DNA of 64,000 nucleotides from Phaeodactylibacter luteus (lineage in GTDB: Bacteria > Bacteroidota > Bacteroidia > Chitinophagales > Saprospiraceae): positions 1 to 64,000 of the forward strand of contig NZ_VOOR01000027.1 of NCBI RefSeq assembly GCF_007993045.1, written 5' to 3'. Below the pieces are notes generated by a model. The model did no database searches, was not told where the DNA came from, and saw nothing but the letters and a program-made list of their open reading frames with translations. Below, piece after piece: positions 44,076 to 49,070 of the stretch (position 1 is its first letter; each line of letters begins with the position of its first letter). The translations under genes and the position numbers were made by a program.

Positions 44076-45025
44076 ACAGGGCTATCGTCATAGGAGCCGG
44101 CGTTTCAGGCTTGACTACTGCCATTGTGTTGCAGGAAGCGGGCTGGCAGGTGGAAATCCGGACAGCAGCGTTGCCTGGGCAGACCAATTCTGCTGTTGCA
44201 GCAGCCATTTGGTTCCCTTACGCTGTAGAGCCGCTTGAAAAAGCCAATGCATGGAGCACGGAGACTTACCATGCCCTTAAGGCCCTGGCCGGGGAGCCGG
44301 GCACAGGTGTCAGTATGACGGATTTCCTTGTCCTTACCCGCCCAGGCCTCGACCATAGCTGGAAGGAAGGGCTGCCTAAAGGGGCCGTCCGCGCGGCCGC
44401 ACCGGCAGAATTGCCTGAAGGCTACCAAATGGGCTATATCGCCCAAGTCCCTCTGGCAGAGTCTCCTGTCTATCTGCCATACCTGCAGCGCCGCTTGGAA
44501 GCTGGGGGCGGGCAGATCAAGCTACAGGAAGTGAGTACCGCCGGAGCTTTACTGGACGAGTGCAGCTTGGTGGTCAATTGCTCAGGGCTTGGCTCCCGCG
44601 AGCTCTTCAGGGATGAAGGAGTGTATCCTATCCGGGGGCAGATTTTGAGCGTGGAAAAGCCAAAGTCAGCCCGTTCAGCAGTAGATTCTATGGACAAGGG
44701 CCACCTGGCCTACCTCATCGTCCGCAGCAATGATATGATCATGGGCGGGACCGACTATGATGGCGATTACAACACCTCGCCTGTTGCGGCAGATACAGCA
44801 GAGATATTGAGCCGCTGCCGCCGCATACAGGCTGATGGGCCGCCCCCCCGTATCAACCGGGCATTGGCTGGGCTGCGGCCAGGCCGTAGCGCTATCCGTT
44901 GTGAGGCCGAGGCAGGAGCCCCCATTATCCACAACTATGGGCATGGCGGCGCAGGGGTGACGGTCAGTTGGGGCTGCGCCCGGGAAGTGCTCAGGCTCGC
45001 ACAGCCGTTTGGCGGGATGGCTTAG
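44072..45025 (+). CDS. D-amino-acid oxidase family flavoprotein
   Basis: 317 residues from the ATG at 44072, which overlaps the DinB-like stop by four bases. It has the FAD-binding GAGVSGLTTAIVLQ (about residues 8-21), the flavin-loop segment AAAIWFPY, the PIRGQILSV substrate-domain motif, and the signature HGGAGVTVSWGCA near the C-terminus, all typical of DAAO/D-aspartate oxidase. It oxidises a D-amino acid to the 2-oxo acid, ammonia and H2O2 with FAD. Its stop codon overlaps the convergent mauG-type stop (TTAG). The DAAO-made H2O2 could feed that peroxidase family, but this is speculation. Confidence 0.85.
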   Translation: MNRAIVIGAGVSGLTTAIVLQEAGWQVEIRTAALPGQTNSAVAAAIWFPYAVEPLEKANAWSTETYHALKALAGEPGTGVSMTDFLVLTRPGLDHSWKEGLPKGAVRAAAPAELPEGYQMGYIAQVPLAESPVYLPYLQRRLEAGGGQIKLQEVSTAGALLDECSLVVNCSGLGSRELFRDEGVYPIRGQILSVEKPKSARSAVDSMDKGHLAYLIVRSNDMIMGGTDYDGDYNTSPVAADTAEILSRCRRIQADGPPPRINRALAGLRPGRSAIRCEAEAGAPIIHNYGHGGAGVTVSWGCAREVLRLAQPFGGMA

Positions 45026-46035
45026 CGGAATTGCTCATCCGTAAGGAATGCGGTGTCGGTAAGGGTTTGCAGAAAGGCAATGAGGTCGCTTTGCTCTTGC
45101 TCAGACAGCCCCAGGGGCTTAACACGAGGGTCTTGGTTGGCGTGGCCTTTCCCGCCTTGATTGTAATGTTGGACGACAGCTCGCAAATCGGCTAGGCTGC
45201 CGTCGTGCATATAGGGCGCGGTCACGCTTATATTCCGTAGTGTTGGCACCCTGAACTTGCCCATATCTTCTTCCTGTAGCGTCACCCGGTGGCGGCCCCC
45301 ATCTTCATATTCCAGGTAAAGCCCATTGTTAAGGAACTGGTTTTGTGTGAAATTGAAACCGGAGTGGCAAGTGCTACATTGTGTGCGGCTGCTGAAAAAT
45401 AGCATTTCGCCCCGGGCTTCAGCAGCAGAGAGGGGCGCCCCGCCTTGTTGGGCGATGTCGTATCGGCTATGCCCGCTGATCATCGTCCGCATAAAGCTCC
45501 CTAACGCACGGGTGATGGTAAAAGGGCTGGCATGCTCGCCATAGGCTTTCGCAAAAGCTGCTTCATAGGTGGGCATCGCGTTGAGGCGCTCGGCAGCGAG
45601 GAGGATGGAAAAATCCATTTCTGCATGGTCCTCAATAGGGACAATGGCCTGCAGATCGAGTTTGGTAACGCCTCCGTCCTTATTGATGCGGCTGAGGTAA
45701 GCAACGTTGGCCAGGGTGGGGGAGTTCCGGAAGCCCAGCCGCCCTTGTACGCCCGGGCTGATGGGCCGGTCATCGGCGAAAGCCAGCTCTTGGCGATGGC
45801 AGCTCTGGCAGGATATACTGGAGTCGCTGGAAAGCACAGGGTCATAAAAAAGCCGTTTGCCGAGCGCTACCCGGGCTTCTGTCAGTGCATTATCTTCCGG
45901 GATAGCCGGGGCAGGGAACCCCTCCGGCAGCTTGAGCGCAAAAGGGGTGGTGTCTTCAGGGCTAAAAGCCTCTGGTTCACAGGAGAGGAAGGCAACAGCA
46001 AGTAAGAGGGATAGGCCCAGTTTTTTTATGAACAT
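45022..46035 (-). CDS. MauG/MbnH-type di-haem protein
   Basis: 337 residues from the ATG at 46035; lipobox LSC at about residue 19. It has two haem c sites, CQSCH at residues 76-80 and CSTCH at 220-224, in the bacterial di-haem peroxidase fold (ALGKRLFYDP at about 58-67, FRVPTLRNISVTAPYMHDG in pieces). It follows an mbnP-type gene. In the MbnP/MbnH pairs known from other bacteria, this enzyme uses peroxide to oxidise a Trp of MbnP to kynurenine; the same reaction is inferred here. A strong hairpin precedes the gene. Confidence 0.85.
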   Translation of the reverse strand: MFIKKLGLSLLLAVAFLSCEPEAFSPEDTTPFALKLPEGFPAPAIPEDNALTEARVALGKRLFYDPVLSSDSSISCQSCHRQELAFADDRPISPGVQGRLGFRNSPTLANVAYLSRINKDGGVTKLDLQAIVPIEDHAEMDFSILLAAERLNAMPTYEAAFAKAYGEHASPFTITRALGSFMRTMISGHSRYDIAQQGGAPLSAAEARGEMLFFSSRTQCSTCHSGFNFTQNQFLNNGLYLEYEDGGRHRVTLQEEDMGKFRVPTLRNISVTAPYMHDGSLADLRAVVQHYNQGGKGHANQDPRVKPLGLSEQEQSDLIAFLQTLTDTAFLTDEQFR

Positions 46036-46112
46036 CTGTAAGCAGCTTAGGTTAAAAGCTCCGGGAGCAGGCACATCAAAGCCCGCCCCGGAGTAAAACT
46101 GACTAGTGTAAA

Positions 46113-46140
46113 CTAAGGGGCCGCCGCGGCGGCCCCTTAG
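46113..46140. terminator. strong hairpin between mbnP and mauG genes
   Basis: A perfect 14-bp arm CTAAGGGGCCGCCG is followed directly by its reverse complement, so a long GC stem with almost no loop. On the minus strand only TTTAC follows, so it could partly terminate or protect the mbnP message from 3' decay, giving more MbnP than enzyme. Confidence 0.6.
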
Positions 46141-46145
46141 TGTTT

Positions 46146-46895
46146 TTAGTGCTTCACAGCTATGGCGCTGCTGATGTTGTCGCGGACAGCAGCTGCAAGC
46201 TCCGGATTATTGCCAGTGTGGGTCACATAGTCCGTGCTCAGGTCGATGCCGTTGAACAGGCGGGCCAGGTCAAACTCGAAGTGGAGCATATTGCTGCCCG
46301 TTTCCACATCCTTGTGCACGGTGTACTCCAGGTTCTGGAGCATGGGGTTGGTGCCCAAGTGGAAAGCCATGGTCTCGTCTACCATGCCATCGCCATCGGT
46401 ATCTACTTTGCCGTCTACGCGCAAGAAGCGGTAGCCGGAGTTCCAGTTCCAGTGCATAGCCGGGAATTGGACCGCGAGGGGGTCAGCAGCGTCCCGGCTG
46501 GTGAAGTCTTCCTCGGTTTGGCTGTTGGTGATGGAGTCTACCCCAACAAAAAAGCGGGCCATGTGGTAGTGCCCAGTTTTGACAGAAGCGACTTCCTGCA
46601 TGCCCGATTCGGGCGTGACGAGTAGGTACTTGCCGGCTACGTCCAGCATGTCGCCTTCTTCTGGCATAAACTGAATGCCCCCTACATAGAAGTTGGCGAC
46701 ACTGAATTTGACGGCAGTGCCGCCAATGGTGTAAACCGTAGCCGTATCAAATGGCATACCGTCAACGGCATATTCGAACATCATGTTGAGGGCGCCTTCT
46801 TCATTGGAAGGGGTGTTTTTGTCCTCTTCACAAGCGGTGAGGGCAAGACCGAGCAGGCTAATCAGGGCGAGGGTGCGAAAGCTTGAAAATTTCAT
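46146..46895 (-). CDS. MbnP-family copper-associated lipoprotein
   Basis: 249 residues from the ATG at 46895 (another Met lies four codons upstream). Lipobox LTAC at residues 19-22. The family hallmark HWNWNSGYRFLRVDG occupies residues 148-162; its Trp149 or Trp151 corresponds to the position that MbnH converts to kynurenine in characterised homologues. VANFYVGGIQFMPE and HYHMARFFVGVDS are further conserved blocks and supply histidines. It is a predicted periplasmic copper binder. It lies between a DUF4625-like lipoprotein and the di-haem enzyme in a five-gene minus-strand group. Confidence 0.85.
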   Translation of the reverse strand: MKFSSFRTLALISLLGLALTACEEDKNTPSNEEGALNMMFEYAVDGMPFDTATVYTIGGTAVKFSVANFYVGGIQFMPEEGDMLDVAGKYLLVTPESGMQEVASVKTGHYHMARFFVGVDSITNSQTEEDFTSRDAADPLAVQFPAMHWNWNSGYRFLRVDGKVDTDGDGMVDETMAFHLGTNPMLQNLEYTVHKDVETGSNMLHFEFDLARLFNGIDLSTDYVTHTGNNPELAAAVRDNISSAIAVKH

Positions 46896-46919
46896 TTTGA
46901 TAAACATTTAAAGGATGAT

Positions 46920-46938
46920 CAAAGGCATTTTGCCTTTG
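46920..46938. promoter_or_regulatory. palindrome upstream of mbnP gene
   Basis: CAAAGGCA and TGCCTTTG are separated by TTT, 25 bp before the ATG at 46895 and 24 bp after the preceding stop. It could be a repressor site or a small mRNA hairpin. Confidence 0.35.
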
Positions 46939-46961
46939 CGTTAAAATAGTTCAATGCAAGC

Positions 46962-47348
46962 CTATTCAATCCGAACAGGCACCGTTGCTTTTGTCTTGTT
47001 GTTGTCATGGTCGTCAGCTTCTACCAACAGCTCGTAAGGGCCTGGGGCCATGCCATCTAGGCTGAAGTCCAGGCTGACTTCCAGGTTGAGCGTGTGCAGG
47101 TGCTGCTTGTCTACGAGGTACGGCATATTGTCCTCTAGGCTGACCAGCCAAATGAAGTAAGTATGAAGCCCCAGGTTTTCGTCAAAAACGACGTCCACGG
47201 GCAGCGCGGTACCGGTCGGGTAAAGGCTATTGGGCGCAGGGGACATGATTTTGATGTTGGGGGCTTCCACATCGAGTTGGGCATCCCGGCTGCTGCAGCT
47301 GCTCAGGAAGAGGCTTGCCATCGGAAGTGCCCAAATCCATTTTTTCAT
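46962..47348 (-). CDS. DUF4625-like lipoprotein
   Basis: 128 residues; lipobox LSSC at about residues 15-18. The rest is a single Ig-like beta sandwich: APNIKIMSPAPNSLYPTG, LPVDVVFDENLGLHTY, GPYELLVEADDHDNNKT. The His residues in LHTYFIW, KQHLHTL and DDHDNN could bind metal. DUF4625-like proteins often accompany MbnP and di-haem enzymes in Bacteroidota. The order on this strand is beta-barrel gene, this gene, mbnP, mauG. Confidence 0.65.
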   Translation of the reverse strand: MKKWIWALPMASLFLSSCSSRDAQLDVEAPNIKIMSPAPNSLYPTGTALPVDVVFDENLGLHTYFIWLVSLEDNMPYLVDKQHLHTLNLEVSLDFSLDGMAPGPYELLVEADDHDNNKTKATVPVRIE

Positions 47349-47396
47349 AAGAAAATGCTGTCGGTTAAGCCAGGCGGTTGATACCGCGGCCGGCTG

Positions 47397-48305
47397 TTAG
47401 AAAAAAACGTTGAAATGGACGGCAGCCCGTTGCCGGGCGTCCACCAGGCCGTTGTTCCAATCTTGCCGGAGCGGCAGGCTCCAGGCAATGCCCAGATTCA
47501 GGTTGCCTAAAAAGGCTTCCAGCCCTGCATTGGCCAGCCACGCCCGGCCTCCGGTCTGCGTACGGAAATACCCCCGTTCGGTGTCCAGCTCAGCGGCTTC
47601 GTACATCAGGCCAGCATTGGGCATGAGCTGTAACCGCCCATGCTGCCTCAGTGTGAAAACGCTAGCCAGGCCGGAGAAGCGGTTGCCAAAACGGTAAGTA
47701 CTGGAGCTTTCCCCATTGAAGCGGGCCGTGGCATCCACATTCAGCCCCCAGCGCTCGTACCGAAGGGTATAGCTCAGGTTGGCCAGGGCATCCCAGCTGC
47801 CGGTGCCTACCTGGAAGTTGGGGTTGGCCACTTCGTTGGGGCCCGGCGTTTCAAATCTGCCCGTTGGAGCCTTTGCCCCTGCGCCTAACGAAAGCCGGTG
47901 GCGGAATAGGCTATAGGTGCTGTCAGGGCTCGACCAGAGCGCGTAGTGAGCCATAAGTGTGAGGTCGCCCAGCCCGGACACCGTTTTAGGGGTACCGTCC
48001 TCTTGCCGTAGGTGGTAGGCGTAAGGCAGTATGGCTGTAAGCTGCCATTTTCGCCCTGCTTGCCATCGCCCACGCACTTCCAAGCTGTTGAAGTACTCTG
48101 TCTGCGGGCTTGCCCCGGGCTCGAAGCTGAGGTCTGGGAAAGTACGGTACTGCTGGTGCTGCCACCAAAAACCGATGTAATGGCCTCCAAGCTGGGGCAG
48201 GAGCCCCGCATAACCGGGCGACATGCTACAGCCGCAGGCGTCGCAGGCTTTACCGTGCCCAAGGATGCCTAGAAAAAGTAGAGAAAGCAGGAACAACCGC
48301 TTCAT
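47397..48305 (-). CDS. outer-membrane beta-barrel with CDACGC motif
   Basis: 302 residues. Signal peptide, then CDACGCSMSPGYAG right after the cleavage region (about residues 21-34), then alternating amphipathic strands (QWQLTAILPYAYHL, RYERWGLNVDATARFNG, LNLGIAWSLPLRQDW) ending in aromatic FNVFF, a barrel-type C-terminus. The three clustered cysteines near the N-terminus suggest a metal, probably copper, site. The gene lies upstream of the DUF4625-like, mbnP and mauG genes; the gap to the next gene is 48 bp. Confidence 0.7.
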   Translation of the reverse strand: MKRLFLLSLLFLGILGHGKACDACGCSMSPGYAGLLPQLGGHYIGFWWQHQQYRTFPDLSFEPGASPQTEYFNSLEVRGRWQAGRKWQLTAILPYAYHLRQEDGTPKTVSGLGDLTLMAHYALWSSPDSTYSLFRHRLSLGAGAKAPTGRFETPGPNEVANPNFQVGTGSWDALANLSYTLRYERWGLNVDATARFNGESSSTYRFGNRFSGLASVFTLRQHGRLQLMPNAGLMYEAAELDTERGYFRTQTGGRAWLANAGLEAFLGNLNLGIAWSLPLRQDWNNGLVDARQRAAVHFNVFF

Positions 48306-48645
48306 ACCGGATAGGTATTTGTCAGGTTATCGCCCCGGGGCGTGCCCCAGGACAGCTGCTGCCAAAAGCTGGCACAGCAGGCTGAAATCAAGATTGGAAC
48401 AGGGCGCACAGGGAGCAGCGCTGATGGGCCTCGATAACCCTCTGCTAGCGGCAAGCGGTCTGGCCAAATGGGCTTCAGCTTGAAACTACAGGCAGAAAAT
48501 CTGGCGTAGCCGTACGAATAGATCGGATGGCTGATAGCGTACAGGCAGGGAAAACTACCCCTTGGTTCTTAACCCGGTGGCCCGGGCAGTTATTGGGCGG
48601 GCAGTACTGTGCGCTGCACATAGGCGCTAAGCTCCTGGGAGAAAA
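48306..48645. other. intergenic, no gene seen
   Basis: 340 bp inside the copper-type group between the small Cys protein and the barrel gene, both on the minus strand. I see GC-rich inverted stretches (GCCCCGGGGCGTG near 48329) but no RNA gene and no match to a known riboswitch. Confidence 0.4.
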
Positions 48646-49032
48646 TCAGGCAAGCCTTGGCGGGTGGAAAATGCCCGGCCCAAGCCATTGAGGGGAAAGC
48701 ATGTGGCAAACCGGCTGGAATACAGCTCGGGCAGCGGCTGCAACAGGGGCCTCGGCCGGCTGTTGAAGGAGGTAAAAAGGGGAGAGGAGCGTACGGTTTT
48801 CTTCAGGAGCAGGAGCCTGCCCTGTTGTACCCTCATCCTGCCCAATGGCATCGGCAGTGACCGTTTGAACATAGCAGCTGCCGCTGCACATCAGCTCTGG
48901 CTCGAATCGGTTGACACAGAGCTCAGCCGCGACGTAATCTTTGTTCCATTGCAGCCACAAGGACAGTGCTGGCAGGTAAGCTGCCTGCAAAGCCACTAAG
49001 GCGAACAAGAAGATGGACCAAAGAATTTTCAT
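48646..49032 (-). CDS. small Cys-motif membrane-anchored protein (copper-associated)
   Basis: 128 residues. One N-terminal hydrophobic helix (WSIFLFALVALQAAYLPAL), then the motif CVNRFEPELMCSGSCYV at about residues 38-54 with three cysteines in C-x10-C-x3-C, known from short Bacteroidota proteins of the type C-x-N-x-x-x-PEL-x-C-x-G-x-C found beside copper and TonB receptor genes. The rest is low complexity. It heads the copper-type group. Confidence 0.6.
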   Translation of the reverse strand: MKILWSIFLFALVALQAAYLPALSLWLQWNKDYVAAELCVNRFEPELMCSGSCYVQTVTADAIGQDEGTTGQAPAPEENRTLLSPFYLLQQPAEAPVAAAARAVFQPVCHMLSPQWLGPGIFHPPRLA

Positions 49033-49037
49033 ATCTG

Positions 49038-49070
49038 CAAAGGTAATGTAATTTTATCCTGCTTTGCAAG
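49038..49070 (-). promoter_or_regulatory. possible promoter of the Cys-motif gene
   Basis: On the minus strand TACCTTTG at 49038-49045 is a perfect -7 element, and CTTG at 49067-49070 sits 21 bp upstream (three of four -33 bases). The predicted transcript start nearly coincides with the ATG at 49032, so the mRNA would be leaderless or have a very short leader. Confidence 0.4.

Follow-up and report, generated by a model that had tools for sequence, protein, structure and literature searches.

A putative copper-sensing leader gene ahead of an MbnP/MbnH-type operon in Phaeodactylibacter luteus and its relatives in Bacteroidota

In a 64,000-nucleotide (nt) stretch of Phaeodactylibacter luteus DNA (contig NZ_VOOR01000027.1, positions 1 to 64,000; hereafter the window), five genes stand together on the minus strand between 49032 and 45022, where an earlier note on this DNA had placed them. 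In 5′ to 3′ order, they encode a small cysteine-motif protein (the Cys protein), an outer-membrane barrel, a DUF4625-like lipoprotein, MbnP, and an MbnH/MauG-type di-haem enzyme. By analogy with the known leaders CutF and CruR, this block is probably a copper-acquisition operon headed by its own copper-sensing leader, the Cys gene, whose product would act through sensing and arrest as the regulator of the operon and not as an enzymatic partner. The earlier note had interpreted the block as a copper-capture system with the Cys protein as one of the capturing partners. The MbnP/MbnH-type pair, its intact WxW motif, and the linkage of the barrel and Cys genes support the first part of that interpretation, but the Cys protein itself fits a nascent-chain sensor of the CutF/CruR kind better, because three fixed Cys residues, a Gly, a near-invariant Asn, and a Pro-Pro at a set distance are combined with a linker that is variable and predicted to be poorly ordered. 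To our knowledge, the control of copper uptake in Bacteroidota has been little studied.

The Cys protein of the window (128 residues, 48646 to 49032; all genes described here are on the minus strand) has an N-terminal hydrophobic helix, the motif C39-x9-C49-x3-C53 (codons 48874 to 48918; previously given as C-x10-C-x3-C), a variable linker of 70 residues, and Phe-His-Pro-Pro at residues 122–125, with the proposed stall site Pro124-Pro125 (codons 48658 to 48663) located three residues before the stop. Among 28 aligned relatives, C39, C49, G51, C53, P124, and P125 were invariant and N41 nearly so. In a larger set of 110 non-redundant Cys proteins (119 minus duplicates), an upstream Cys followed by CX3C was present in every member, with nine residues between them in 101 proteins, six in seven, and 10 in two. 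Pro-Pro was found within the last 20 residues in 109 of the 110, compared with three of 449 proteins of other families, and the sole Cys protein that lacks it is a sequence containing a run of N. A Phe two places before the Pro-Pro (71/110), a His or Arg directly before it (74/110), and two or three residues after it (70/110) are also frequent. With a profile of the N-terminal part alone, Pro-Pro was still present in 117 of 119 proteins at E-values up to 0.1, both misses sharing the same N run, and the C-terminal Pro-Pro is therefore no artefact of the search.

What is unusual in this family is a tight spacing that is not accompanied by conservation of sequence. The distance from CX3C to Pro-Pro has a median of 68 residues (quartiles 67–69, range 61–86 in the 110 proteins), and linkers of equal length share a median identity of 11.6%; the distance separating the two haem motifs in the di-haem enzymes, where the intervening segment is folded and conserved, is kept about as tightly (quartiles 139–141). 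Structure prediction gave a confident N-terminal helix followed by a low-confidence tail. These features also bear on the possibility that the protein is a membrane-anchored copper chaperone or accessory partner of MbnP/MbnH in which Pro-Pro is part of the working site. Three invariant Cys residues together with Gly51 and the near-invariant Asn41 would suit a Cu(I) site, the gene is linked to those for MbnP, SCO1, and PCuAC, and CutF was likewise first proposed to be a chaperone (PMC8456105). However, a stretch that is hardly conserved and yet kept in length, the low predicted order behind the helix, the near-universal C-terminal Pro-Pro, and the promoter-like element at the start codon followed by a long gap to the next gene (see below) are not what such a chaperone would lead one to expect, and we regard this explanation as unlikely.

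The proposed copper-sensing leader draws further evidence from the DNA around the gene. Directly upstream lies a promoter-like sequence of the Bacteroidota type (49038 to 49069), consisting of TTG, 21 nt, and TACCTTTG. The −7 consensus of Bacteroidota is TAnnTTTG, and since the corresponding element of the window (49038 to 49045) stops 5 nt short of the Cys gene's ATG, the transcript should start at or beside the start codon and be nearly leaderless. In the 150 nt that precede the gene, TAnnTTTG was present for 68 of 109 Cys genes, as against one of 50 barrel genes, one of 24 lipoprotein genes, 16 of 117 MbnP genes, and 14 of 122 MauG-type genes; counts involving the lipoprotein (these 24 starts and the gaps next to that gene) are the least secure. 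Its profile drifted in iteration from seven sequences to 66 hits and was rebuilt twice. An element ending 3–8 nt before the start codon was found for 48 of 110 Cys genes and for 19 of 1181 other open reading frames (ORFs), the latter being ORFs of at least 220 residues that include some that are not genes. The next gene is co-directional in all 110 cases, and the gap behind the Cys gene has a median of 111.5 nt (n = 110), compared with 23 nt for other gaps in these operons (n = 187). In the window, 340 nt (48306 to 48645) separate the Cys gene from the barrel gene, with a G+C-rich hairpin right before the barrel start whose folding signal is weak (z −1.44; 16 of 200 shuffles fold equally well).

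No Pfam family was matched by the Cys protein of the window at an E-value of 0.1, and no Pfam or NCBIfam model was found for the family as a whole in a scan of the 28 rows at 0.05, in which matches of single members (E 0.04 in Pfam, 0.019 and 0.021 in NCBIfam) were taken as chance. Membership of DUF2946, the family of CruR, was considered and rejected, as the window protein has no PF11162 match and the 104 Cys places in 198 genomes sampled from the phylum coincide with none of the 18 PF11162 hits in the same genomes. The protein is closer to the general description of CutF from Rhodobacter capsulatus, which is likewise small, contains CXXXC and a C-terminal Pro-Pro, and is encoded directly upstream of copper genes (PMC9973294, PMC8456105); the window protein also lies within the limits of fewer than 150 residues and Pro-Pro in the last 15 residues that were used for CutF-like proteins (PMC9973294). 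CutF undergoes co-translational export and functions as a copper sensor in the periplasm, although its proline motif by itself gave no strong stalling (PMC9973294). It differs in the spacing from C73 to P114, which is 40 residues (C69-C73, P114-P116) against the family median of 68, in a stem-loop between cutF and cutO, in a multicopper oxidase as the downstream gene, and in that no third Cys is reported in the available text.

CruR of Bordetella pertussis resembles the Cys gene in standing at the head of a copper operon with a TonB receptor and a long gap, and in the combination of a Cys motif with a C-terminal Pro-Pro at a fixed spacing (PMC9426467). It senses copper via CXXC and stalls at a C-terminal RAPP, and its spacing of 45 residues matters for function (PMC9426467); the arrest at RAPP was later demonstrated in vitro (PMC12992588). 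Its syntenies include TIGR01778 receptors, SCO, PCuAC, and MbnPH-like genes, and the type is listed for Proteobacteria and a few Planctomycetes, Firmicutes, and Deinococcus (PMC9426467). The Cys family departs from this pattern by CX3C in place of CXXC, a mostly F-H/R-P-P ending in place of RAPP, and 68 in place of 45 residues, and the window protein does so with CX3C, FHPP, and 70 residues. A search for a TonB-copper receptor on plasmids as a route to DUF2946 sequences gave no match, and the PF11162 hits of the phylum were used instead. In four of the eight PF11162 loci fetched, CXXC and R-A/G-P-P occur 43–47 residues apart, and the other four yielded no such pair of motifs; the four with the pair (L194, L195, L197, and L200) are leaders of the CruR/DUF2946 type. 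Judged by these sequences, CruR-type and three-Cys designs coexist in Bacteroidota and are distinct, and each family thus keeps its own length (43–47 for the DUF2946 type, 45 for CruR itself, and 68 for the Cys family).

If the Cys protein works in the manner of these leaders, RNA polymerase would initiate very close to the start codon of the Cys gene, and the N-terminal helix of the nascent protein would enter the membrane. The C-x9-C-x3-C motif would then emerge approximately 70 residues ahead of the active site of the ribosome by the time that Phe-His-Pro-Pro slows or arrests it just before the stop codon. Copper bound to the nascent Cys motif would alter the dwell time of the ribosome, which in turn would decide whether the four genes downstream of the gap (barrel, lipoprotein, MbnP, and MbnH) are expressed. 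The barrel would bring copper in, MbnP would hold it outside the inner membrane, and the di-haem enzyme would oxidise the first Trp of the WxW motif of MbnP.

The genes that stand beside the Cys gene point to copper. Behind the 110 Cys genes, the next gene encodes a barrel (39), MbnP (33), a TonB receptor (24), a MauG-type enzyme (3), a further Cys protein (2), or something else (9), so that one of the first three follows in 96 of 110 cases, a split that reflects sampling, as 68 of the 110 come from loci fetched because of MbnP. In the set from the bacterial family of the window, which has 69 Cys places, 20 regions were fetched without a listed MbnP hit (one of them, L075, holds an MbnP-like ORF on the other strand), and the 21 Cys genes in them are followed by a TonB receptor in 10 cases, a barrel in six, a Cys gene in one, and other genes in four. 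For the 20 of 104 Cys places fetched from the phylum sample, the corresponding numbers are 13 for TonB receptors, one for MbnP, one for a barrel, and five for others. When 14 TonB receptors adjoining the Cys gene or one gene away were scanned against NCBIfam at an E-value limit of 1e-40, TIGR01778 (TonB-copper) was the best model in seven, at 147–250 bits and always below its cut-off of 472. In some relatives, a receptor with TIGR01778, the model of the OprC/NosA type, as its best match takes the place directly after the Cys gene; none is present in the operon of the window, where the barrel occupies that slot. Clusters of nos genes are present in three Cys loci (L078, L081, and L085), beside the Cys-family gene and a TonB receptor; NosZ and NosL were confirmed in L085, and the other two are assigned by clustering. 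SCO1 is encoded no more than 1.5 kb away from the Cys gene in four loci (L174, L184, L187, and L191), twice downstream of it and twice upstream, and PCuAC lies approximately 1.9 kb from it in one locus.

The linkage to MbnP is far above chance. In the 198 phylum genomes, which contain 104 Cys places and 71 MbnP places, the Cys family occurs in 77, MbnP in 51, and both in 37 (Fisher p = 1.7e-8), and a Cys gene lies within 5 kb at 28 of the 71 MbnP places, compared with approximately 0.2 expected under random placement in genomes of 4.2 Mb; the conserved linkage of the barrel and Cys genes, on which the earlier interpretation had been made to depend, is also supported. The five-gene block recurs across Bacteroidota. 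Among 79 named MbnP loci (from the best 80 of 364 matches), a MauG-type gene was present within the fetched DNA in 72, a Cys gene in 47, and a barrel gene in 38. Within the same best 80 of 364, Phaeodactylibacter xiamenensis is the closest named species in which the gene order is kept (MbnP 71% identical; L096), and MbnP loci with a Cys gene occur in Saprospiraceae, Chitinophagales, genera such as Emticicia and Lacihabitans, and Flavobacteriales. The same neighbours help to weigh the idea that the Cys protein is an arrest peptide which senses export status or the thiol redox state and not copper. Its layout is of the SecM type, and other candidate arrest peptides of Bacteroidota with a C-terminal proline are located upstream of secA or secDF (PMC10987492). 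Against this, the identified downstream genes are copper-linked in most loci, no sec or dsb gene was recognised downstream (the nine neighbours classed as other are not all annotated), and the three Cys residues stand in a fixed pattern; we consider such a sensor very unlikely.

Besides the sampling bias noted above, several observations weigh against a copper-sensing leader. No expression, stalling, or copper data were found for these loci. The ending, mostly F-H/R-P-P, is unlike the RAPP/RGPP for which arrest has been demonstrated, PF11162 matches none of the 104 Cys places in the phylum genomes, and the other seven of the 14 scanned TonB receptors had a siderophore model as the best match (three) or nothing at 1e-40 (four). 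Expression would be expected under copper scarcity by analogy with CruR, but this direction of control is a guess because copper increases expression in the case of CutF and decreases it in that of CruR (PMC9973294, PMC9426467). An upstream ORF on the same strand was called mechanically at 70 of 110 Cys genes, and the status of the Cys gene as the first in its operon rests on the promoter-like element, which is absent at 41 of 109. The spacing of 70 residues in the window protein falls in the upper part of the range, and the gap of 340 nt behind its gene is at the 90th percentile. A general route from the pause to the next gene was also looked for in the form of a clear stem-loop or a C-rich Rho-like stretch, and neither proved to be general. 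Regions around the downstream start are only slightly more structured than controls (z −0.63 vs. −0.03, 58 vs. 58, p = 0.011) and the pairing of the start region did not differ (p = 0.26, 58 vs. 58), and a stem-loop over the downstream start was set aside as a general feature in view of this weak signal. The excess of C over G in the 120 nt after the gene is 0.045 for Cys genes, 0.052 for barrels, 0.084 for lipoproteins, 0.013 for MbnP, and 0.012 for MauG-type genes; the Cys value is not special among these classes, and a Rho-type stretch was likewise rejected.

A wider proposal, which we advance tentatively and hold to be somewhat doubtful, is that Bacteroidota use a distinct class of copper-sensing arrest peptide. 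Such a class would combine near-leaderless transcripts with a sensor located approximately 68 residues from the stall site, compared with 40–45 in the two proteobacterial forms that have been characterised. At this distance the sensor would lie beyond both ribosome and translocon, which would let the ribosome read periplasmic copper, and one type of sensor would serve MbnPH operons, TonB copper receptors, copper chaperones, and nitrous-oxide reductase clusters throughout the phylum. The ribosome tunnel and the translocon together span approximately 68 residues, and this spacing could place the sensor on the periplasmic side while the ribosome is at Pro-Pro, which is only a suggestion because CutF senses periplasmic copper with a shorter spacer. 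The general idea of CutF-like proteins is not new for Bacteroidota, which account for a large share of the 5,334 such proteins in a 2023 survey (PMC9973294). In the literature searched, we found no description of the three-Cys, 68-residue, mostly F-H/R-P-P type, of its near-leaderless start, or of its position in front of MbnPH operons in this phylum, although the 29 clusters of PMC9973294 might list the family. A survey published in EMBO J. in 2025 describes RAPP/RGPP leaders before copper-related genes in many lineages, Bacteroidota not being among them in the available text, and before TonB-related genes in Gram-negatives generally (PMC12992588); the Cys family, with its different ending, could fill this gap. 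If the proposed function is true, a family for which the 28-row scan found no Pfam or NCBIfam model and which is present in 77 of 198 genomes would be a copper-responsive translational switch, and the Cys gene would flag copper-uptake operons wherever it is found, including those with uncharacterised barrel transporters and nos clusters.

Relatives of the Cys gene in other settings add some observations. The genome of the window has a second, divergent Cys-family gene (G000:C68:24113-25787; L174:9614-11288), with C-x6-C-x3-C, IEHPPP near the end, and a TACCTTTG element 4 nt before its GTG start; one gene separates it from a SCO1 gene. Further relatives stand directly before TonB receptors in L177–L182, which lie in genomes placed only in the same phylum, with sizes of approximately 2.4–3 Mb; the one checked (L177) has C-x6-C-x3-C and IDHPP, and the only receptor scanned among them (L178) has TIGR01778 as its top model. 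Four Lacihabitans loci (L152, L153, L162, and L164) carry a NosL-like gene at a distance of a few kb from the Cys gene. A nos_propeller search of the window genome matched nothing, and no control was matched either.

The assignment of MbnP (46146 to 46907), a lipoprotein, is firm at the level of both sequence family and predicted structure. It scores 111 bits with PF20243 (gathering score 27), and an AlphaFold2 model built from 26 relatives (predicted local distance difference test score 90.6) superposes on the solved MbnP 7l6g with Z 17.6 (root-mean-square deviation 2.8, 200 residues aligned), the next entry being at Z 5.6; the fold was settled by this comparison because a direct sequence search against solved structures gave nothing at 0.001 and 7l6g only at an E-value of 0.21. 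The motif HWNWNSGY is kept as previously described, and its two Trp residues are 149 and 151 only when counted from Met5, becoming 153 and 155 from the first Met of the longest ORF. In this numbering, M151, W153, and W155 (codons 46443 to 46457) and H183 do not vary in any of the 26 aligned rows, and beyond the signal region no Met other than M151 and no His other than H183 is invariant. A 2021 PNAS paper reportedly showed that MbnH turns a Trp of MbnP into kynurenine and that the copper ligands are His and Met. The pattern of the window fits such a His/Met/kynurenine site as described for Methylosinus trichosporium, and W153, the first Trp of the WxW motif, would by analogy be the expected site of kynurenine. 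The di-haem enzyme (45022 to 46074) contains both CQSCH and CSTCH, as the earlier note had it, and matches PF03150 (CCP_MauG) with 166 bits. TIGR04039 (MbnH) is its nearest NCBIfam model, and its best solved relative is 6e1c (177 bits), listed as a di-heme enzyme and presumably the MbnH of M. trichosporium; solved cytochrome c peroxidases reach at most 131 bits and MauG chains at most 68.

These scores leave room for a pair that has drifted to another role, in which neither copper is bound nor kynurenine formed. Both proteins are below the equivalog cut-offs of NCBIfam (MbnP 49.2 of 140 bits with TIGR04052, the enzyme 273.9 of 362.85), and the only Cys of MbnP is that of the lipobox, so that the four-Cys motif is absent. 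Invariance of M151, W153, W155, and H183, best solved relatives in 7l6g and 6e1c, and a copper-related neighbourhood all argue the other way, and we consider a drifted pair quite improbable. The window pair thus resembles that of M. trichosporium in fold, M-x-W-x-W, the His of HxG, and the di-haem partner with two CxxCH motifs, and differs from it in the missing four-Cys motif, the sub-equivalog scores, the other operon partners, and the lack of an MbnB-family match in the genome. No member of the MbnB/TglH/ChrH family (PF05114) was matched in this genome (99.85% complete; a control matched in two of 14 genomes), a search that did not include MbnC, and to this extent the earlier remark that no methanobactin gene is seen holds genome-wide. 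Reading the pair as a methanobactin-free MbnPH system is likely right, and it is already known in kind, as pairs far beyond methanobactin producers and outside methanobactin operons were reported in 2013 (PMC3621798). PF20243 was found in 145 of 149 genomes sampled from the family of the window, and an MbnP gene is therefore ordinary there. At least one WxW-type MbnP was present in 27 of the 29 loci that have a Cys gene and in 12 of the 14 that lack one, a count that omits loci beyond L094 because that named set was fetched by a pattern requiring MxWxW. The window genome has three MbnP genes. Two of them are in tandem on another contig, followed by two di-haem enzyme genes (G000:C112:90174-94134; L034:9675-13635); they have FGQDSGY and YWEDANSY in place of the canonical MxWxW, and their contig is without a listed match to the Cys family.

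The remaining members of the block are less well characterised by their families. The barrel (47397 to 48305; PF13557, 34 bits) carries the reported CDACGC as ACDACGC near the N-terminus, after the presumed signal peptide. It may be the copper entry route of the operon in place of a TonB receptor, because barrel and receptor alternate behind the Cys gene and the genome has no good TonB-copper match (31 bits at best). The lipoprotein gene (46962 to 47348) is present as described and its product has conserved His residues, but its likeness to DUF4625 is weak (18.3 bits against a cut-off of 27). For the di-haem enzyme, the true start is probably Met14 of the ORF, near 46035, which would make it a lipoprotein. 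The neighbours of the block are a divergent GH53 gene and a convergent gene for a flavin adenine dinucleotide (FAD) oxidoreductase. Between mbnP and the di-haem enzyme gene lies a G+C-rich hairpin of 13 pairs (46112 to 46141), which was listed by the scan as terminator-like on the plus strand and may lower the expression of the enzyme relative to MbnP or protect the mbnP message.

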